Shown here in pieces: positions 11,604-59,169 of a stretch of 64,000 bases of DNA. The first letter of the stretch is position 1. Each line of letters begins with the position of its first letter. Both the position numbers and the translations under genes were made by a program. The notes under the pieces are model-generated. The model was not told the origin of the DNA, made no database searches, and worked only from the letters and a program-made list of their open reading frames with translations. The DNA is from Sporopachydermia quercuum (taxonomy: Eukaryota; Ascomycota; Sporopachydermiomycetes; Sporopachydermiales; Sporopachydermiaceae), in the NCBI GenBank assembly GCA_001599295.1, contig BCGN01000003.1, positions 1,899,148 through 1,963,147 on the forward strand, in the 5' to 3' direction.

Positions 11604-13574
11604 ATGAGTAACACTATTCGTCAATCATCAGATACTCATTGCTGGGAATCGTTTACTCCCTCGATTGGAACTTCCATCAGTAACAATGATGAATTATCTG
11701 ACTGGCATTTGTATGAGAAATCAGACCTATTGAAAGGCAAGCAACTGTTGAAGAGTTCGCATTCCCGTAACATATTTAAATCTGCCATCAACTTCTCTGA
11801 AGTGCATAATGACTTTCAAGCATTAGAATTAGAAATTGAATGGTGTATGAAGTATGAGATCAATCAAATTCTACTACCTGTAAGGGATATATCTTCAAGT
11901 ACTTTTTCTTCTATGGTACCCTGTACTAGTCTACTATACAAGATATTACAGAAATACAGGAAACTTACATTTTTATTACTCCTTGATGAAAGCAGCTTGT
12001 TATTCTGGTACCAGATCAATCAGTATTTGAATTTTGATTCTAGGATCAAACTTGCCTTAATAATCCACCAGAATGATAGGGCATTTGTCAATGACTGGTG
12101 CTCTCAAGATGTACATTTACTATGGGTTCATCAAGAAACTTCTAAAACGTACTTGGCACAATATTTGACAGCGAATCCTCATGTTGAAGTGTATTTAGAT
12201 AAAGGATCTCTGCTTTCCGTTGAATCGATAAAGGAAATGGTTAAAGGTATAGTAAGGGATTATGATCGGTGCACAAAATTTGCTTTCCAGTGTATGGACT
12301 TGCTGTCAAGTCCTCTACAACCATCGGTTGAAGATCTTGAAGATGAGTCTTATAAGGTATTTGAATTAGATGTTCCGAAATATAAGCAATATTCAAAGGC
12401 TTGTGAGCAGGCTCTGATAGATTTGATGAATACAGTGGATAAGGAGGGCCCCCCTTTAAGTATTATGGTGCTGGGATGCGGGAGAGGACCTCTTGTTACT
12501 TCCTTGTTATTAGGAGGAAGTAAATGTGTATCCATTGATCAATTGGAAGTCACGGCATTAGAAAAAAACCCTGTAGCTATTGAAACATTATTCAAGTATA
12601 AAAAAGAAATGACATGTGAAGGTACGGAATTCAATGTTTCACATCTTCCAGCAGGTTATCTTATTGATCTGGCGGATATCTCGGAGATGAATTACATAAG
12701 ACAAGGATGGAGTAACTTAAGAATAGTTGAAGGCGACGCTACAGTGATTGAATTTCCCGTTAAATTCAATCTAGTGATAAGTGAGCTTCTAGGAAGTTTC
12801 GGATGCAATGAACTGGCGCCAGAATGTTTAATTCCATTTGAGAAAAACCTTGATGGTAAGTGATTCTTCCTGGATTCGTCCTGTTTAACTATGCATTTGA
12901 GTGGGCCAATTAATCATAATCATTATATGAATTCCATGCTGACATTTATTTTCTCGCTTCTAGAAAACGGTATTATGATACCTTCAGAGTACAGCTCTTG
13001 GGTTGTTCCTTTAACATCACTGAAGCTCCATCGGCAGTTAAATTCAAAGGTGAGCAATTTTGACTACAAGGGTATCAATAAATCCCTACAGCAGCATCAT
13101 GTTGCGTATCTGAAAACACCAGTTATGATCTCTTCTCCTTTAGAATGCTGGTCATTCAAATCGGGAAGAAATCAATATTCCTGTTCGACTGAGATACATC
13201 AGCAATTGTTCTCTCGTAATGCATTCTTAAAATTCCCTTTAACGTTTGACAAATCTCAGCGAAACAAAGTTAATCTAATCCATGGACTGGCTGGCTATTT
13301 CTCAGCTCAGTTATATAAGAATATCGTAATTGATATCTTGCCCGAGAGTAATAAAAGCGAAGTGTTGACATGGTTTCCAGCATATTTTCCATTAGAGTCT
13401 CCCCTTGATGTTGGAAGCAGCTCATGGGTTCAAGTCAATATATCAAGACATAATAAGGCTACTAATAATAACAGTATGCGGACTTGGTATGAATGGTGCT
13501 TGACACTGGAAAATGGTACTTGTTCGATGATTCATAACTTAGACGGAAAATATGATTCAACTGCTTTAGATTAG
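11604..13574 (+). CDS. HSL7: PRMT5/Hsl7 type II protein arginine methyltransferase, two exons
   Basis: Symmetric protein-arginine dimethyltransferase; in yeast Hsl7 also controls the Swe1 morphogenesis checkpoint. Exon 1 runs to 12855 and exon 2 from 12964 to 13574. The 108-nt intron starts GTAAGT, has a CTGAC box and ends TTCTAG; splicing gives a continuous 620-residue protein (human PRMT5 is 637). Motifs: an N-terminal TIM-barrel-like part, VFELD whose Phe253 matches the PRMT5 specificity Phe, the SAM loop LGCGRGP (290-296), the double-E loop SELLGSFGCNELAPE with Glu394 and Glu403, the C-terminal barrel motif GLAGYFSAQLY, and WYEWCL near the end. The frame extends to 11568 from a TTG; the first ATG is 11604. 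It is shorter than S. cerevisiae Hsl7 (827). Confidence 0.93.
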
Positions 13575-31862: not shown

Positions 31863-32978
31863 TGTGTTAATTCAATTGGTATCTTTTTACTTTGTTTTGT
31901 TATTATCAATTAATGTAATAATTTCAATGTACCTCATATATAGTTATAGTTATTATGATGTGCAATCCTTAACTTTTGTTGCACAGAGTGTTGTGTTGAT
32001 TCTGTGTGCCAGCCTGAGAAACTGGTGCGGAAAAGGGATGAAAGGGAGAGACTGGGGAACAGGACTCTCCAGGTATCTGTAATTCTGTGTGAGCCTCTGC
32101 ACCGAACTTTCAACGGAGACTGTCAGGGAATTGCGCTTTGGGACAGGTAATTGGCCATGGAATGGAATTTATGAGTCGTTGTTCTGTACCGAAGAACAGA
32201 GACCCTTGGATAAAGGTAGGAGTTCTGCATTTTGAGATGAGCTGATAAGGTTAACGGAAGGACAAGAGTGGGAATAGAATGAGTATAAGGAGCTGGGAAA
32301 AAGAAAGAAAAAGTTAGTNATATTTGACTGGAATAATCTTGTTTCACTGAAATGCTTTGCATATATTCAGGACATCGACTGTAGATTCNTCTTTGTTGTT
32401 ATTATGAGTAGACCCTTATCCTCTCTGTACAGTGGTTCCTCTGCAATACTGAAACTAAGTGAAATATACTCATCGTGCCAAAGCTTTGCAGATCGTGGTT
32501 CAAGTGCGAATCAAGATCCTCCGTTTGAACTTCGTCTAAATATCAATTCCAGTTAATAAATACCTGTTTCCAAAAATGCATTCGAATTTTCAACCCGCTA
32601 ATACCCATCTTCTAGTACAGCCACCATTCTTTCCCTTTGCCTATATAACTGCCTTTCGCTGTGCTCGTATTTACTCGAAGCGGTAATTACCAGCATACAC
32701 AATTTCAGTCTCCAGAACAGCCTGTCCGTCACCTTTATTCTCATCGCGCGTAATATAACATCACGTCTCTTCTCGAATTTGACGATTACACAATGGCTCT
32801 CGAACAAATATATCGAGCACATAACAACTACCTACGGCATTATTATCACATTATGCCAGGAATAACTACTATGTAAGCAGTAATGTACCATCAGGCCCCT
32901 TCTCGCTCAACAGGTCTTGTCAGGTAATTTCCAGTGCTACAGGAACTAAGTACACCATGAAATCTTCATGCCGAAATT
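31863..32978. promoter_or_regulatory. Divergent intergenic region between HMO1 and the tRNA-ligase-like gene
   Basis: A 1.1 kb region with the HMO1 promoter on one side and the start of the ligase-like gene on the other. No remnant of a tRNA-ligase adenylyltransferase domain is visible in any frame here. Small frames at 32123-32362 and 32598-32822 are unrecognised and not called. Two N bases. Confidence 0.5.
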
Positions 32979-34784
32979 ATGCATTTACGTTGTGATCTCA
33001 CGAAACTCCATAGAGCTCTCAACTCTTCATTCTACGTCACTTCAGCATTACACGTCCGACATGAGCTGCGGCGGAGCCATGTGCATCCTTTGCGCTGCTT
33101 CAGCAATATTCGATATCCCAGAGGAACTGGAATCTGCATTACAAAATCTGGTGATGCCAGAAATATTTCAAGCGTGCGAGAACTCTATTCAACCAGCTTA
33201 CGCAGAATATCATCTACCTCATCACAAGTCAAGGAATTTTCACCTTTAAACGGATCAGATTATGAATCAGACAGTTCTACCGAGCCAGCAATCCAATACC
33301 GGATTCCTGAGGGTGAAATCCGTTTTATTCTTGTCCCAATAGGCTATATAGCTTGTGGGAAGACAACCATTGCCAATTCCTTGCACCAACTCTTCGGCTG
33401 GCCTGTTGTTGACGACGATCCTTCGCAGAACCTCCCAGAGTACTGCATGAGCGTTGCCAGTGCTCTGATGTCCGAACCTGTTGTTTTTTGCGATAGAAGT
33501 AATCATCAGCAGAGCAATAGAATAGATCTGTACAACTGCATGGCCTCCATGCTGGAACCAGACTCGTTCAAGAGATTGAGGTTTATAGCGTTGTCTTTTG
33601 ATCTTTCCGACGTTGAGACCGTAATGGATGTTGCGAAGAGACGGATTCTGTTCCACGGGGTGAACGTTGAAAGCGCGGACACTTCAGATGCATCCACAGC
33701 CTCAACAGTCTCAGTAGGAACCTCTACAGGAACTTCCGTATCTACAAAACCCTATTACCTGAGAAAAAAAACGTATGATCTCAACACAGATTTAGCTATT
33801 GGAACTGTTAATTCAATTATNGAGAGATACGTACAAGCCTTTGAACCATATTCGTTCCTAGACAATCAGATCTTTGCAATGGTCATTGATCTCTCTTCTT
33901 CTACGTCAAACTCTTCGCTATCAAACGTCTCCCTTATCATAAACCTGATGAGAACGTATAATCCCAGTTTGATCCCATGGGGTATTTCTGACGAGGAAAT
34001 AGAAGCTGCTGTGTCTGCCTCCTTGGTCATCCCAGAGACGGCAAAGCTGGACCCGACACCTGAAGGGTTTACCCTGCTACCACCGCAGAGCCAAATCTCG
34101 GTGATAGTAGACAATGAGCTGCAGATCCCTCCCAGCTACTATTATCTGCGCATCAACGTGTGGAAAGACGTTCTCCGATCTGAGATCTACAAGCTTTTTG
34201 ACGCTCCAGAGATGCATTGCAACCCAGGAGCCAGAGAGGCCTTTGATACCATGTCTATGACCCAAGGCGACTTTGAATCTAAGCTTTTGGACGTGAATTC
34301 TGCTTGGAAGAAGCCAGACGCCTGGCTGTATTTACGGAAACAGGAAAGGAGATCCTTTGTTGACTACTACGTTACGCGAGAGCACCTGGCCAGCAAACTG
34401 GCTGTGACCCTGGCCGCTCCGCGGTCTCTTCGGGGCGAACTGGAAGTATGTAGAGTGTCAGCAATGCTCCAAAGTGTTATCTGGAACGAGAGAGTTGCCA
34501 TCGTGACGATTGGAATTAGAACTCCTCAGCGAACACTGCGGATTCGTGATAAGCGGATCTTTTTCGTCTTTGGTCATAAATCCAGTGTGAAGGATCCATA
34601 CCGAGAGGGAGAAGCTCTTCTGGAAAGGTGGAATGGAATGAAACGACAAGGCCGAGGGCGGACAGGAACGTTTTTGTATGAAACGGAGGAAAAGGAGGAA
34701 AGTGAGATTAGTTGTATGGAATGGAGGCAAGAGAAGCCAGTTCTGTTGGATGATTTGAAGGTGTTTAGTAAGCCTATGGTTTAG
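32979..34784 (+). CDS. tRNA-ligase (Trl1)-like kinase plus degenerate phosphodiesterase domain, no ligase domain
   Basis: A 601-residue protein matching only the C-terminal two thirds of fungal tRNA ligase Trl1. Kinase part: P-loop GYIACGKTT (122-130), D146/D147 where Trl1 has its QND motif, CDRSNHQ (171-177) matching Trl1 DRNNHQ, RFIALSF (201-207), then SSLSNV and NPSLIPWGISDEEIEAA as in Trl1. Phosphodiesterase part: SYYYLRINV, then YYVT (463-466) where Trl1 has HIT, WNERVAIV (502-509), and FFVF (528-531) where Trl1 has the second HIT. Both catalytic His therefore look replaced. No KxxG ligase motif. The N-terminus is Arg/Ser/His-rich with RCFSN, possibly a mitochondrial presequence; the ATG at 32979 is the only one before the P-loop. 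GC content is visibly higher than the surroundings. Alignment is from memory. Confidence 0.75.
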   Translation: MHLRCDLTKLHRALNSSFYVTSALHVRHELRRSHVHPLRCFSNIRYPRGTGICITKSGDARNISSVRELYSTSLRRISSTSSQVKEFSPLNGSDYESDSSTEPAIQYRIPEGEIRFILVPIGYIACGKTTIANSLHQLFGWPVVDDDPSQNLPEYCMSVASALMSEPVVFCDRSNHQQSNRIDLYNCMASMLEPDSFKRLRFIALSFDLSDVETVMDVAKRRILFHGVNVESADTSDASTASTVSVGTSTGTSVSTKPYYLRKKTYDLNTDLAIGTVNSIXERYVQAFEPYSFLDNQIFAMVIDLSSSTSNSSLSNVSLIINLMRTYNPSLIPWGISDEEIEAAVSASLVIPETAKLDPTPEGFTLLPPQSQISVIVDNELQIPPSYYYLRINVWKDVLRSEIYKLFDAPEMHCNPGAREAFDTMSMTQGDFESKLLDVNSAWKKPDAWLYLRKQERRSFVDYYVTREHLASKLAVTLAAPRSLRGELEVCRVSAMLQSVIWNERVAIVTIGIRTPQRTLRIRDKRIFFVFGHKSSVKDPYREGEALLERWNGMKRQGRGRTGTFLYETEEKEESEISCMEWRQEKPVLLDDLKVFSKPMV

Positions 34785-39928: not shown

Positions 39929-41866
39929 TCAAACTGGAACAGGAAGGAACATTCTTCTAATAAAAGAAGCAATTCCCTTCCCCTGCAATCTCTGAATCGC
40001 CAGGCTTCCGTCCTCAACTGCTTCGTGGCTCTTTCTCTTCAGTTCCAGCTCACGGGCTTCCTCCGCAATCAGCTTTCTCACCGTGGCTTCTCGCAACAGC
40101 AATAGCATCCCACAGGATACCATGAAGACGCATCCCACGTACAACTGGGGCCCTATAAATATATTCTGGTGCACCAAAGGCTTCTCCGGATTGGGGTCCT
40201 TCTTTATGACTAAAGCAACCACTTCAGAGAACAACGAGGGCACTCCCAAAGCTATACACGCCAGCGAAAACGCACTGGGAAGTTTCTTCAGGCCTGAAAG
40301 ATCTGCTGTCATAGCAGCAAAGGTAACCCAGATGGCCCCCATAGATAAACCTACGACAGCCGCAAAGCCAATGACGCCAGCGTAGGTTTTCACCTGGGTC
40401 CATACCACAAGGCAGAAAAGACCAGTGAAGAAATTCAGGAGGCAGGTNAGACTGACTCTGCCAAACTTATCAGCCAGAAATCCAATAAAAGGCCGCGCGA
40501 CAGACTGGGATGCGTTGATTACTGACACCGCAACGGCTCCTTTATGTGCCGTGAGTCCCAGGCCTTGCGTGGCATACGCACTCAGGGAATACAACAGGAT
40601 CACGAACCCGGACTGCGAGAAGAAAATTACAGCATACAGTATTAGCAAAGGATGGTTTTTCATGAGGGAATAGTCCCATAGTTTGATATCAGGCTTTATG
40701 ATGTCGTTCCTGCTCCGGATAAGCAGGATCGCTATCACGCTGAGCACACAGTTGACGACCGCCATTACTCTGTAAGCCCATTGGACGGAAATGCTCTGGA
40801 TCAACGCCTGGCTGATCCAGGAGAAAACTATGCCCCCAATGCCAGTCCCAGCGGCGGCGATCCCGTTGGCGATGGCCCTCCGGGTGAAAAACCATTGGGG
40901 AATAATCATGGTGCTGGGGATGAAAGTGAAGCCAATGCCAATGCCTACTGTGAGCCCTTGCGCTAGGTACAACTGCCAGATTCTCTTACTGAAGCTGGCA
41001 GCAATATAGCCACCAACCTGCAGCACCAGGCCTAAACTGAGAGTGGGCTTGATGCCCAGGACACCTACGGTTAGAGAGACAAAAGGAGCTATCACGCAGC
41101 TGATGCCAATGACTAATCCGCCAATGAGAGCGAAATCCACTGTTGATGCATCCGGGTACTCCTTGTTACTGAGAAAATAGCTGAGATACACAGCAAAGGC
41201 CGAATTGGAGCCCCAGGCAGTGAAATTGAGCGTCATGGCGCATCCAACGCACACCCAGCCGTAGCCTCCATCAGGAATGCTGCTGGCGTTGATGGTGGAA
41301 GTATTGGTTTCCAGTTTCTGAAGTCTCTGCATTTTTGAGTCCTGCGATAGGGCACTTGACGGCCTCCTAGAAGCAGAATTAGGATGCTGAAGGCCTATGG
41401 GACCATCAGTAAACTCATTTTTCCTTTCAGGATACCCATTGTAGTAATAGTAGGTGTCCTCTGGTTCGTATTGTTTCTCGTACTGATTGACAGTGTTAAT
41501 TCTAGAAATGGTGATAGGATCCAAGTCGTTGGAAAGAAATAGGTTATTATTATTGTTGCTAGCCCTACTTTTGATCTTGGTTAGAAGACTCATACTGTCA
41601 GTTCCAGCGCCGGTTATTATTGGAATTTTGATAGAGCTGCTATTAGGATGAGAATGAGGACTGGAGATAAAACTAGGGGAATTGCCGATGGTCTGCCTGC
41701 CATTGCTGTTTANTAGCTGTACAGGAATTTGCTCTTCGTTTAATTCATCTGATGAATCAAAAGCGTTATCGAATGATATATCGGAAGAGGCCACAGAAGT
41801 GGCCACCGGAGAGATCACCGAAGATGTTTCGTTATTGCCGTTTGATGGGGGAGTTATCACGGTCAT
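39929..41866 (-). CDS. Monocarboxylate-transporter-like MFS permease (Mch/Esbp6 family), copy 1
   Basis: A 645-residue major-facilitator protein of the fungal monocarboxylate-porter family (Mch2, Mch4, Mch5, Esbp6). A long polar N-terminus (about 197 residues, Ser/Asn-rich) precedes PDGGYGWVCVGC, the family signature opening membrane segment 1; GIGFTFIPSTMIIPQWFFTRR and GIAAAGTGIGGIVFSWISQA match the conserved loop and segment 5. About 12 hydrophobic segments. The C-terminus ends FIRRMFLPVPV. Despite their name, yeast members are not proven monocarboxylate carriers; Mch5 carries riboflavin. The membrane part is GC-rich, while the N-terminal coding part is more AT-rich. A second copy lies 1.4 kb upstream on the same strand. 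Two N bases fall at sites compatible with silent changes. Substrate unknown. Confidence 0.88.
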   Translation of the reverse strand: MTVITPPSNGNNETSSVISPVATSVASSDISFDNAFDSSDELNEEQIPVQLXNSNGRQTIGNSPSFISSPHSHPNSSSIKIPIITGAGTDSMSLLTKIKSRASNNNNNLFLSNDLDPITISRINTVNQYEKQYEPEDTYYYYNGYPERKNEFTDGPIGLQHPNSASRRPSSALSQDSKMQRLQKLETNTSTINASSIPDGGYGWVCVGCAMTLNFTAWGSNSAFAVYLSYFLSNKEYPDASTVDFALIGGLVIGISCVIAPFVSLTVGVLGIKPTLSLGLVLQVGGYIAASFSKRIWQLYLAQGLTVGIGIGFTFIPSTMIIPQWFFTRRAIANGIAAAGTGIGGIVFSWISQALIQSISVQWAYRVMAVVNCVLSVIAILLIRSRNDIIKPDIKLWDYSLMKNHPLLILYAVIFFSQSGFVILLYSLSAYATQGLGLTAHKGAVAVSVINASQSVARPFIGFLADKFGRVSXTCLLNFFTGLFCLVVWTQVKTYAGVIGFAAVVGLSMGAIWVTFAAMTADLSGLKKLPSAFSLACIALGVPSLFSEVVALVIKKDPNPEKPLVHQNIFIGPQLYVGCVFMVSCGMLLLLREATVRKLIAEEARELELKRKSHEAVEDGSLAIQRLQGKGIASFIRRMFLPVPV

Positions 41867-43281: not shown

Positions 43282-44973
43282 TCATATACTCATGATACAG
43301 AACATTCTTCTGAAGAAACAAACAACCCCTTGCTGTAATAAGGCATTTATTCCATCCAATTCTTCCCTCAATTCCTTATTGACTTTCTCATTTGACTTCT
43401 CATCGTTCACATCTTCTAATTTAATGTCCGACGTTATTTTTATTTGAGATGACTCATTTTTCTCACCAATATCAGCTTCCTGAAAATTCAATTTGCCAAG
43501 TATAATATCTTTCCTTTCTTCTAATATCTTATTGACTTTATGTTCCCTGGTTAATAATAGCGATAAACTACCAACGATAAAAGCTAGACCGGCAAACAGT
43601 TGAGCATGCAAAAACACATTTGAAAGTGAACTATCACGTAATTTATAAGCAATAAGTTGGCCGAAAGTAGTGGCAAACATACAGCATATGCAAACATATG
43701 AAAAAGCGCCTGGAAAGTCCTTCAAGCCTGCAGAATCCGCTGTTAAAGCAGCGAAACTTGACCACACTATTCCTAACACTAAACCAATAAGAATAGCAAA
43801 CATCAACAAGCCAGCGAAGTTGCGAACGTTTATCCACATGCAAAGGACAAGAACACCGTTCAGAAACGAAGCTAGAAACGTGATATTGATTCTTCCATAC
43901 TTATCACAAGCAAATCCAACTAAAGGTCGTCCAACTGCTTGGGAAGCGTTTAATATTGCTGTGATGATAGACGCTTGCTTGAACGTTAGGCCTGCAGTGT
44001 CAGTAGCAAAAGTTTGTAAGGAGAAGAGAACAATAATAAAGCCAAATAACGATATCACAGCCCAGCAAATGATAGTGATTAAAGCATAATTCACCAATAC
44101 TGTTAATCTGAACATANTACGGTTAGGTTTTACCAGGTGATTTCTACTTCTGATGAGAATTGTTGATGCAATGCCTAAAACAAATATGACTATGGCCATC
44201 ATTCTATAGGCCCAATTGATAGAAGAGTTTCGGATAGTTNNCTGGCTTCCCAAGGCAAAAATAAGCCCACCAACACCTGTACCAGCTGAGGCAATGCCGT
44301 TAGCTAATGAACGTCTTTTGAGAAACCATTGAGGAATAATTAAAGTTGCAGGAATGTATAAACAGCCAGCGCCAAATCCTACTAACAGTGCCTGTATTAC
44401 AAACAGTTGCCACTTTTTAGTAGCGAATGATACTCCAATGTACCCGCCCGTTTCAAATGCTACACCTAATAGTAAAGTAGCATGAATACCAATAATGCTA
44501 GAGATGATATTGATTAAGGGTGCTATACCAACAGATATACCAATCGTGAGACCAAAGAGCAAACAATAGTCTGTCATAGTTGTGTCAGGATGAGTGTCAT
44601 TATTCATAAAGTAGTTTAGATACACACCAAATGATGCGGCTGGACCCCATGATATGACATTGAGAACGAACGAGCATCCAGCGCATACCCATCCGTACCC
44701 GCCATCGGGTGGTGTCACATCAACCGGCGGTAAAGAGGCTGCCGTAGACCCCTCTGGAGATGCTGATGCGGATACCGATGGTGACGACGACAGAGCTGAC
44801 AGCACTCTTGATGTTTGTCGGCTGGGGATGAAGAAAGAAGCGTTTTCTTCTACTTCATGTTGATTTAGGTCTGGTAGATCTGTGTATGATTGTATAGGGC
44901 TCTGTAGGAAATGTATAAGGGAGGATTCTGATTTATTTGAACGGTGAGAGGATGTTCTTGAAAGATCATTCAT
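43282..44973 (-). CDS. Monocarboxylate-transporter-like MFS permease (Mch/Esbp6 family), copy 2
   Basis: A 563-residue paralogue of the neighbouring permease. Seen: a shorter polar N-terminus with Ser/Ala repeats, PDGGYGWVCAGC before segment 1, GAGCLYIPATLIIPQWFLKRR, GIASAGTGVGGLIFALGSQ, and SQAVGRPLVGFACDKYGRI in the second half. About 12 hydrophobic segments, then a charged cytosolic stretch and the end FFRRMFCIMSI, matching the tail of copy 1. Base composition is AT-rich like the rest of the window, in contrast to copy 1. Three N bases (44117 and two adjacent at 44240-44241). Tandem duplication followed by divergence is the simplest reading. Substrate unknown. Confidence 0.87.
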   Translation of the reverse strand: MNDLSRTSSHRSNKSESSLIHFLQSPIQSYTDLPDLNQHEVEENASFFIPSRQTSRVLSALSSSPSVSASASPEGSTAASLPPVDVTPPDGGYGWVCAGCSFVLNVISWGPAASFGVYLNYFMNNDTHPDTTMTDYCLLFGLTIGISVGIAPLINIISSIIGIHATLLLGVAFETGGYIGVSFATKKWQLFVIQALLVGFGAGCLYIPATLIIPQWFLKRRSLANGIASAGTGVGGLIFALGSQXTIRNSSINWAYRMMAIVIFVLGIASTILIRSRNHLVKPNRXMFRLTVLVNYALITIICWAVISLFGFIIVLFSLQTFATDTAGLTFKQASIITAILNASQAVGRPLVGFACDKYGRINITFLASFLNGVLVLCMWINVRNFAGLLMFAILIGLVLGIVWSSFAALTADSAGLKDFPGAFSYVCICCMFATTFGQLIAYKLRDSSLSNVFLHAQLFAGLAFIVGSLSLLLTREHKVNKILEERKDIILGKLNFQEADIGEKNESSQIKITSDIKLEDVNDEKSNEKVNKELREELDGINALLQQGVVCFFRRMFCIMSI

Positions 44974-54989: not shown

Positions 54990-56297
54990 ATGACAATTCA
55001 AGAGTTCTTTTTTCCTGTACCAGGTTCTGACCTGGTGCTGCGCAATATCACCGATAAACAATCTATACAACTTACACACTCCATAAACTCTGGGACATGG
55101 GCGGGAAAACTCACACAGGAACAATATGTTGCCCGGGAGGCTTTTTTGGGCTCAACAGAAGCTTGTGCAAACGGCTTGTTGACATATTGGGTTCTTACTG
55201 CAAAAGATACGCTAGAGATCACCGGGGATACTGTATTGTCTGCATGCGAAACTCTTCTCCGGAGGGGCCTAAGATCCACACCAGAGAAGGAGTATAAAGT
55301 GTGCCCCAGTTATGTTATTGGGGGTGTTTTTACCTCCCCAAAATTCCGTGGCAGAGGTTATGCGAAGATCATGATCTCTCAATTGAACCATGCCTTAACA
55401 CAGGTAGGCGATAGGATCTTTAAACATGTTTTCAAGCCTAACGAGAAAGAATACTCTCCAACTCATACTGTTGTATTATATTCCGAGGTAGGTGATTATT
55501 ATTCTCAGTTTGGGTACAGAATTAAAGATATCACCACCACGCATATTTCTGTGCGAGCCTCTGCAGCCCCTGTTGGGGGAACCGGTACAGGATTTACTCC
55601 AGGCACTAAAAGCGCTGGTACAGAGAATGACATCAGAAAAAGTGCTAGTGGGAAGAACATTTCTGCCACAGGAATAACTCTTTTGAAGAGAGGTGAATTC
55701 AAAGAAGTGTGTGCCAGAGATTGTGAATTTATTATCAATCAGTTTGTTAAGGACATTTCTCATCAGAGTCCTTCAGCCAAGTTTATTCCTTCAGTAGCTG
55801 TTCTTCCTGACTATCAAACGATCGATTGGCATCATGCAAGGGCAGATTTCATACACGGCTTCTTCAACAAGCCAAAGCCAGTCATATTTGGTGCAATCAC
55901 TGGGAAAGGCAGCTACGCAATATGGAATTTTGACTACGCAAATGACGCTCTTTACATTCTTCGTGTAAATGTTTCAGAAGCTTGCAAGAACAGTTTCTGC
56001 CAGGAAGAGCTTCAGCAGCTTTTCACAGTTGCCATACAGCAAGCTCGAGAGGCTGGACTGAAGGAGGTTGCTCTTTGGGACGATGATCTAAACGTCACTG
56101 TTGGATATCATTCNACCAACTGCGACAAGTCTCATACAGAAACTCTAGCAGAGCTGTTTGACGGCGTGCAGCTAGGCTGCCTGCCAAGTAGTTTACCTGC
56201 TGTTAGAGATGGTTACCAAGACAGCAAGGAGCAAGGAGGTCGCGAAGGTAGTGGGGAGGCCTATTGGCTGTTCTGTGGAAAATATGCTTGGTTTTAG
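54990..56297 (+). CDS. LYC1: LYC1-type GNAT acetyltransferase
   Basis: A 435-residue protein of the fungal Lyc1 family. In Yarrowia LYC1 encodes lysine N6-acetyltransferase, the first step of lysine breakdown; other members may have other substrates. Seen: the GNAT acetyl-CoA loop FRGRGYAK (119-126) in the strand SYVIGGVFTSPKFRGRGYAK, then VVLYSEVGDYYSQFGYR, the usual end of the GNAT fold; a Gly/Thr/Ser-rich linker (about 195-230); and a family-specific C-terminal half with DWHHARADFIHGF, YAIWNFDY and WLFCGKYAWF at the very end. GC content is moderately above the surroundings. An N at 56114 falls at a third codon position (Ser either way). Substrate inferred from the family name only. Confidence 0.85.
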   Translation: MTIQEFFFPVPGSDLVLRNITDKQSIQLTHSINSGTWAGKLTQEQYVAREAFLGSTEACANGLLTYWVLTAKDTLEITGDTVLSACETLLRRGLRSTPEKEYKVCPSYVIGGVFTSPKFRGRGYAKIMISQLNHALTQVGDRIFKHVFKPNEKEYSPTHTVVLYSEVGDYYSQFGYRIKDITTTHISVRASAAPVGGTGTGFTPGTKSAGTENDIRKSASGKNISATGITLLKRGEFKEVCARDCEFIINQFVKDISHQSPSAKFIPSVAVLPDYQTIDWHHARADFIHGFFNKPKPVIFGAITGKGSYAIWNFDYANDALYILRVNVSEACKNSFCQEELQQLFTVAIQQAREAGLKEVALWDDDLNVTVGYHXTNCDKSHTETLAELFDGVQLGCLPSSLPAVRDGYQDSKEQGGREGSGEAYWLFCGKYAWF

Positions 56298-57591: not shown

Positions 57592-59169
57592 CTAACAAAC
57601 TAGTTTTGTTGTGGTCTCCTCTTTACCCCTCTTTGTCCGCTCGCTTATTTCTTCCTTCCGGAAACCTTCCTCTTCCACTCGCGGGGAGCTCTCCCACATC
57701 TTTTCTTCACTACTGTCGTTTTTCCCGTTCAACATTGAGCTAATTGACACCAATTTTGAAGTGCGGGGGCCAATTCCTGTACTGGAGACCGTGCTGCCTG
57801 GTGGAGTTGATAGTGCCGCTAGCTGAATTGTCACTGGTGCTGTTGGAGGTGTCAGGGAAGCGGATGTACCAACTCCTATGCAGGAGATTCCTTCGGCTTT
57901 CGGGGTAGGCAAAGAGCTTCCTGTGCCGGTCCCGCTTCTGGTTGGAGAGTCAGAACTGGACCCATTTGCCAGAGCCGTTGGTGGTCTCAATAGATCGTCC
58001 ACCGGCGGCAGGTGTGTATGCGAAAGGCCTTGCGCATGGCAGTGTGCGTGGGCAAATGAGGGCAGATGTGCTGGTTGCAGGGGAGGCAGAATCGACGGAG
58101 CTCCGGAACCAGGTGCTGTGTGTGGCCTGGGTAGAGAAAATGGTACTGTGCGGCCAAAAGAACCAGTAAAATCAATCGCAGGAGGAGCAAATGTTGATGC
58201 TCTACCCTCCGGCACATGGTGAGACTGTAGCACGTTCAATGGTGGTAAGGGAAATGTTTGGGGAGCTCCTGGTTGCACTGTGTATAGGTTCAGTGGTACT
58301 GAGGTGTTACTAGGCACGTAAGAGCTTGCAGTGGCTGCGGGAATGCCTGTTGGGGATTCTACGATTGGAGGGAACAACGGCGATTTACTTTCTGGGTCAG
58401 GCTTAATTCCTGTTGTCGTTGCCGTTGCCATTGCTGCCACTGGTCCTGCCGCAGTTTTACGGTCTTCGGAAGTGCCAAGAAGAGGCTTTCCCACACCGGA
58501 ACCTGTGGTGACGGTCCCAGTGACATGGCCTGCAGCGTTCCTCCTCCGCCGTTTGATCGTAGGCCGCTTCATATTTACCGGCCTGTGCGCGCCATGCAGC
58601 CTGTAGTACAGCCCGCAAGCATTACAGATAGTGTTTCCCATATCATCTCTACGCCAAAGAGGTGTTACTGTCGTGCCGCAGTTCTGACACGCGACAGCCA
58701 CCACGGTTTCTCCGTGCCCCAAGTGTGATGAATGGGAAGAGACAGACTCTGGAGAGGATGCTGGGGAGTCTCCGTGTCCGGATGATTGTAAATTTGGGGA
58801 CGAGGGGTTGCTGAATCGTTTATTTCCCGTAGCAAAGTGTTCGGGGCCTGTATTCACACCAGGCGTAAATGTACCTGACCCTCCGTTAGAGCCATCAATA
58901 ACTACTCGGTTATTAAATGCAGGGCATCCTTTGCATGCGGCGGATCCTCCGGTGCCGTTACAACGGCCATCACCTTTGCAAGTGCCGGATTCATTGTCGT
59001 TGTCCACCGGTACCACCACTGGCGGCCGTTTCAGGTTTACTGGCCGTTGCGAGTTGTTTGCCCGGAGATATAATCCGCACGCGTTGCACACGAGATTCCC
59101 CTGCGCCGAGCGTCTCCAAAGAGGAGTTTTTGTTGTTCCGCAGTTGGAACATACTTGTCCTGGCGACAT
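57592..59169 (-). CDS. SFU1: Two-finger GATA iron-responsive repressor (SreA/Sfu1/Fep1 type)
   Basis: A 525-residue transcription factor that in other fungi represses iron uptake and siderophore genes when iron is ample. Seen: GATA finger 1 with C7, C10, C28, C31 (CX2CX17CX2C), then RPVNLKRPP; the cysteine-rich iron-sensing region C64-X5-C70-X8-C79-X2-C82 (CKGDGRC ... CKGCPAFNN); and GATA finger 2 with C161, C164, C182, C185, followed by [16 protein letters not shown]. The long C-terminal part is Pro/Ser/Thr-rich, ending in a charged, probably helical stretch (about 485-520) like the C-terminal coiled region of the family. The order finger, Cys-rich, finger is diagnostic. The gene is markedly GC-richer than its flanks. 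Expected sites: ATCWGATAA in iron genes, not seen nearby. Confidence 0.94.

Follow-up and report, generated by a model that had tools for sequence, protein, structure and literature searches.

In fungi, the tRNA ligase Trl1 joins its domains in the order LIG-KIN-CPD on a single polypeptide, and Mucorales have a stand-alone RNA ligase arrangement. For Branchiostoma floridae, excerpts of two papers describe a separate kinase/CPD healing enzyme that has both activities and carries two H-x-T/S motifs (PMC3400036, PMC5434554), and an excerpt of the second describes vertebrate CNPase as having no kinase activity, with its H-x-T/S motifs kept (PMC5434554).

Here we analysed a 601-aa protein encoded in the window, by which we mean the whole 64,000-nt stretch of Sporopachydermia quercuum DNA under study. 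Like fungal Trl1, this protein has a kinase with a P-loop, an Asp and DRxN, followed in the same order by the start and, weakly, the core of a CPD. Unlike fungal Trl1, it has no ligase domain and appears to lack both the RGDNH motif and the HxT motifs of the CPD, and it carries an Arg/Ser-rich N-terminus and a Ser/Thr insert; an intact Trl1 coexists with it. It resembles the B. floridae enzyme in joining kinase and CPD in one chain that has no ligase, yet the H-x-T/S motifs seem to be absent. It shares with CNPase a related P-loop plus 2H layout, and in CNPase, as far as the excerpt describes it, the P-loop persisted although one activity disappeared; in contrast to CNPase, the 601-aa protein has apparently lost both the H-x-T/S motifs and the kinase lid. 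As in Mucorales, the arrangement departs from the fused fungal layout, but there the ligase stands alone, whereas here an extra healing half lies beside the fused enzyme. No described fungal protein with such a layout appeared among the matches listed in the open-licence literature on Trl1 paralogues or under the Pfam names.

A ligase-less Trl1 paralogue beside a complete Trl1

The ORF is uninterrupted from ATG to stop over 601 codons (Table 1). Pfam places the kinase family PF08303 at aa 117-237 (67.9 bits, cut-off 22.7) and then, in the same frame, the CPD family PF08302 at aa 312-570 (25.1 bits, cut-off 23). The N-terminal fragment (32979-33313, aa 1-111) has no Pfam match. No Pfam ligase domain was matched anywhere in the protein, which confirms the original prediction that the ORF product is missing this domain. 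A BLASTP comparison with the full-length Trl1 of the same genome gave an E value of 9e-16, with identity at 73 of 286 aligned positions. All six PDB sequences matched at E up to 1 were tRNA ligases, with the matches running through the kinase domain, and a two-sequence profile built from the 601-aa protein and its own Trl1 likewise retrieved only tRNA ligases from the PDB (10 of 10, E up to 0.001). The 601-aa ORF is real and is homologous to the fungal Trl1 kinase and, more weakly, to its CPD.

Table 1 Features of the Trl1-like locus in window coordinates, with the evidence for each.
Feature	Protein position	Window position	Strand	Evidence
Trl1 kinase-CPD paralogue, 601-aa ORF without ligase domain		32979..34784	+	ORF, Pfam, BLASTP
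N-terminal extension, Arg/Ser/His-rich, weak codon-position signal	aa 1-114	32979..33320	+	Pfam, codon measure
Trl1-type kinase domain	aa 115-237	33321..33689	+	PF08303, 67.9 bits; alignment to solved Trl1 kinases
P-loop GYIACGKTT, GxxxxGKT intact	aa 122-130	33342..33368	+	Alignment, motif check
Asp aligned with Asp of QND, kept	D147	33417..33419	+	Alignment
DRSN, DRNN equivalent, Arg kept	aa 172-175	33492..33503	+	Alignment, motif check
HGVNV, replacing lid RGDNH	aa 226-230	33654..33668	+	MAFFT, phmmer, Pfam truncation scans
Ser/Thr-rich insert after lid	about aa 233-268	33675..33782	+	MAFFT
CPD domain start, reliable part of CPD match	aa 312-411	33912..34211	+	Pfam, truncation scans
Very diverged CPD 2H core, tentative	aa 412-571	34212..34691	+	Real versus scrambled tails
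F528-F529-V530, candidate second HxT place in the Pfam register	aa 528-530	34560..34568	+	Truncation scans; other alignments prefer E545-A546-L547

We searched the 16.4-Mb assembly (12 contigs) and found one complete Trl1, on contig C1, of 843 aa with ligase, kinase and CPD domains and all of its motifs (GCGKTT, DRNN, RGDNH and two HIT). The ligase family PF09511 has a single match in the genome, in this enzyme, and a search with the 601-aa protein returned only itself and Trl1. The CPD family, searched at E up to 10, gave the full-length Trl1 only; that search is not exhaustive, since the 601-aa protein lies above the hmmscan cut-off and is nevertheless missing from it. One Tpt1 and one Ire1-type RNase domain were also found, and RtcB had no match in the genome. 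With one full-length Trl1, one Tpt1 and one Ire1-type RNase, the standard fungal pathway is complete without the window gene. Because the pathway and its full-length Trl1 are present, the 601-aa protein is, judged by its homology, an extra, diverged Trl1 paralogue and not half of a split ligase, and the proposal of a diverged kinase/CPD paralogue without a ligase thereby gains support.

The lid motif of the kinase is replaced

Of the 36 kinase columns invariant in the Trl1 proteins of the same genome, Candida and Chaetomium, 22 are kept, and the lysine and threonines of the P-loop (G122-T129), D147 and R173 are all retained. DRSNHQ begins at aa 172 and RFIALSF at aa 201. The claim of a preserved kinase signature holds for these two stretches and for GYIACGKTT; it overlooked the lid, where RGDNH reads HGVNV. 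MAFFT places H226-G-V-N-V230 at RGDNH, and phmmer against 9r3w agrees. Consistent with this, Pfam truncation scans put R533 and H537 of the full-length Trl1 in profile columns 118 and 122, which are also the columns of aa 226 and 230, so that HGVNV occupies columns 118-122. The Arg is thus changed to His, the Asp to Val and the His to Val, and only the G and N of RGDNH are kept. In the MAFFT alignment, the Ser/Thr-rich insert has no counterpart in the Trl1 of the same genome, Candida or Chaetomium.

Work by Wang and colleagues in 2006 is said to have found Asp425, Arg463, Arg511 and His515 of yeast Trl1 essential for kinase activity. The D425N form of yeast Trl1 is kinase-inactive, according to an excerpt of a separate report (PMC6456296). 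D147 of the 601-aa protein would correspond to D425, and from their spacing Arg511 and His515 would be the R and H of RGDNH, and Arg463 the Arg of DRxN. Since the R and H of the lid, both reportedly essential in yeast, are replaced, the RNA 5'-kinase ability that had been proposed is unlikely to be retained.

The CPD retains a recognisable start and has lost its HxT motifs

The segment aa 301-440 alone scores 15.4 bits to the CPD family, matched at 312-411; aa 361-601 alone have no Pfam match, and aa 299-601 searched against the PDB match no tRNA ligase. With the domain start followed by the real tail, the score was 27.6-27.7 bits, and all 18 scrambled tails (17 shuffled and one reversed) scored lower, at 12.2-23.3 bits, with 17 of them at 16.1 bits or less. 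We based the test of homology on profile scores against scrambled tails because pairwise alignment of the core was no better than shuffles: against the CPD of the full-length Trl1 the real score of 7 was reached by 332 of 500 shuffles (mean 8.8), and against the Candida CPD by 145 of 500. We take the scrambled-tail result as moderate evidence for a very diverged 2H core, against which the pairwise result counts. Single-sequence AF2 models were poor, with a mean pLDDT of 32.4 for the whole protein and 44.7 for aa 374-578. A Foldseek search with the latter, low-pLDDT model returned 742 matches at E up to 10, of which none had an E value of 0.001 or below; no protein named as 2H was among the best 50 of the 742, and we give this search no weight.

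The last 300 residues contain histidines at 413, 469 and 533 only, and H533-K-S535 is the single H-x-S/T of the whole protein, so a search for an intact HxT elsewhere in the sequence came back empty. Where the two motifs would fall is uncertain, as the alignments disagree. For the first, MAFFT and a pairwise partition model at temperature 3 point to E433-S434-K435 (model probabilities 0.39 and 0.35), and in the model at temperature 2 the first motif of the full-length Trl1 shifts to F528-V530; in the Pfam register, H695 of that enzyme is column 122, flanked in the 601-aa protein by aa 412 (column 100) and aa 513 (column 184). For the second, E545-A546-L547 is the choice of both MAFFT and the model run at temperature 3 (model probabilities E545 0.60, L547 0.67), while in the Pfam register H794 of the full-length Trl1 is column 198 (T796, column 200) and aa 533 of the 601-aa protein falls in column 203, which gives the placement in Table 1 on the assumption that there is no gap in the last five residues before aa 533. 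In the pairwise model, the probability of a His at the place of H695 or H794 is at most 0.04. Because no placement yields a His, both catalytic His motifs of the CPD are, on this alignment evidence, missing in any register considered. The motifs had been read as YVT (at aa 464, and also at aa 19) and FVF (aa 529). That both are lost stands; no alignment favours the YVT place, and the Pfam register for the second motif, equally free of His, lies one residue off FVF (529-531).

An open frame with a weak coding signal

To gauge upkeep of the frame, codons 405-843 of the full-length Trl1 were decayed neutrally to 26% identity in a substitution-only simulation without indels and with base weights chosen by us. 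The simulated frames held a mean of 18.8 stops, and at least 10 in all 300 runs; the real frame has none. The 190 open codons of the divergent tail have a chance probability of about 1.4e-5, and the 110 open codons of the N-terminus one of 0.0034. We infer past selection on the frame through most of its divergence.

The codon-position asymmetry of the ORF is the lowest of 69 ORFs. By this measure codons 111-440 are coding-like, and codons 1-110 and 441-550 fall within the non-coding range; scores as low as theirs occur in just 11 and 12, respectively, of 230 control segments. The frame has a codon log-odds value of -0.015 per codon, versus 0.228 (sd 0.091) in 47 other ORFs, though this is still above the five other frames.

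The GC3 of 0.479 is the second highest of the 69 ORFs (mean 0.305 in 47 ORFs, 20 stretches), which bears out a GC content above that of the neighbours as a figure but not as a mark of this gene, because the top four ORFs all lie in the window and the trait is regional. These four (32979-34784, 39929-41866, 54990-56297 and 57592-59169, with GC3 of 0.48, 0.55, 0.40 and 0.47) are separated by AT-rich stretches; the other three comprise an MFS transporter, a LYC1-like acetyltransferase and, by eye, a two-finger GATA factor. The neighbours 39929-41866 and 43282-44973 (-) look by eye like related MFS transporters, of which the first was domain-scanned, and their GC3 is 0.55 versus 0.35. Horizontal transfer was considered for the GC content. 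The GC rise is regional, and the kinase identities (33.0% to Chaetomium Trl1, 29.7% to the Trl1 of the same genome and 28.0% to Candida Trl1) are too close to decide. Viral contigs held no relatives detectable with the protein query or the two-sequence profile, and in prokaryote contigs one locus of 22 pattern matches was a 25-residue P-loop stretch, in Pseudonocardia. We rejected a Ser or Ala reading of CTG, since the codon falls at Leu-like positions, judged by eye, of membrane helices and of GATA fingers set against the GATA finger consensus.

A possible maintained pseudoenzyme and its alternatives

We put at roughly one in two the probability that the locus arose by duplication of the KIN-CPD half of Trl1, or from a Trl1 copy whose ligase part was lost, and has diverged into a non-catalytic protein. 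Such a protein would still bind NTP and perhaps RNA ends, and it would be unable to phosphorylate 5'-OH ends or to open 2',3'-cyclic phosphates, both healing activities being predicted absent. Any function would then be exerted by binding, for instance by competing with Trl1 or holding it on tRNA exons or HAC1 mRNA. A regulator role is conceivable, though a more specific proposal seems to us unlikely, namely a dedicated non-catalytic protein with affinity for GTP and RNA ends whose role is to regulate or antagonise Trl1 during tRNA or HAC1 splicing. If maintained as a pseudoenzyme, the protein would offer a natural non-catalytic relative that uncouples binding from catalysis in the healing of RNA ends; a decaying copy would be an ordinary duplicate caught at a late stage.

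That second outcome is the most serious competitor, and we hold it tentatively as plausible. Here the duplicate would be turning into a pseudogene under relaxed selection, with its catalytic residues lost and its frame unbroken so far by luck. The weakest codon-position signal of the 69 ORFs, the atypical GC3 and the poor codon log-odds all fit such decay, as do the catalytic positions lost in both kinase and CPD and the long Ser/Thr insert. Against it stands the stop-free run of 601 codons, and given the neutral decay simulation any relaxation of selection must have been recent. On balance we prefer a maintained pseudoenzyme to a late-decaying duplicate.

We consider it improbable that the protein is an active but altered 5'-kinase, for RNA or otherwise, with a rebuilt lid around the kept P-loop, Asp147 and Arg173, perhaps acting on another substrate or in another compartment. 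Retention of GxxxxGKT, D147 and DRxN together with the 22 invariant kinase columns would suit such an enzyme, but the replacement of RGDNH is found alike by phmmer, MAFFT and the Pfam register, and for a role elsewhere in the cell the N-terminus is not unusually presequence-like. Its first 40 residues have a net charge of +5 and a best helical moment of 0.43, compared with +5 and 0.40 in the full-length Trl1; of 60 other ORFs, five reach the charge, 18 the moment and three both. The mitochondrial targeting once proposed from the Arg/Ser-rich start thus receives no special support.

Introns and the upstream region

Six sense codons separate the ATG from an in-frame stop at 32958, and downstream of M1 the frame has no further Met before M157, past the P-loop. 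A kinase-carrying exon must therefore start between 32961 and about 33320. No branch-point-like site occurs in 32780-33330, the last YTRAY of 32300-33330 beginning at 32779, which makes a conventional splice acceptor immediately ahead of the kinase less likely; in contrast, branch-point-like CTGAC and TACTAAC are found in two likely introns at other places in the window, one in a PRMT5 and one in a Ras gene. An upstream spliced exon encoding a ligase was sought here, and neither a ligase domain nor a usual acceptor was found. A split tRNA ligase, in which the protein would heal ends while such an exon or another locus supplied the ligase, is very improbable and already contradicted: the protein's layout does resemble the separate B. 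floridae kinase/CPD protein described in an excerpt (PMC3400036), but the ligase family occurs once in the genome, inside a normal full-length Trl1, the HxT motifs are apparently lost, and both the in-frame stop and the missing branch-point-like site speak against an upstream exon.

The PRMT5 gene itself, at 11604-13574 (+), identified by a domain scan of its first ORF, consists of two ORFs that are apparently split by an ordinary intron (GTAAGT, CTGAC).
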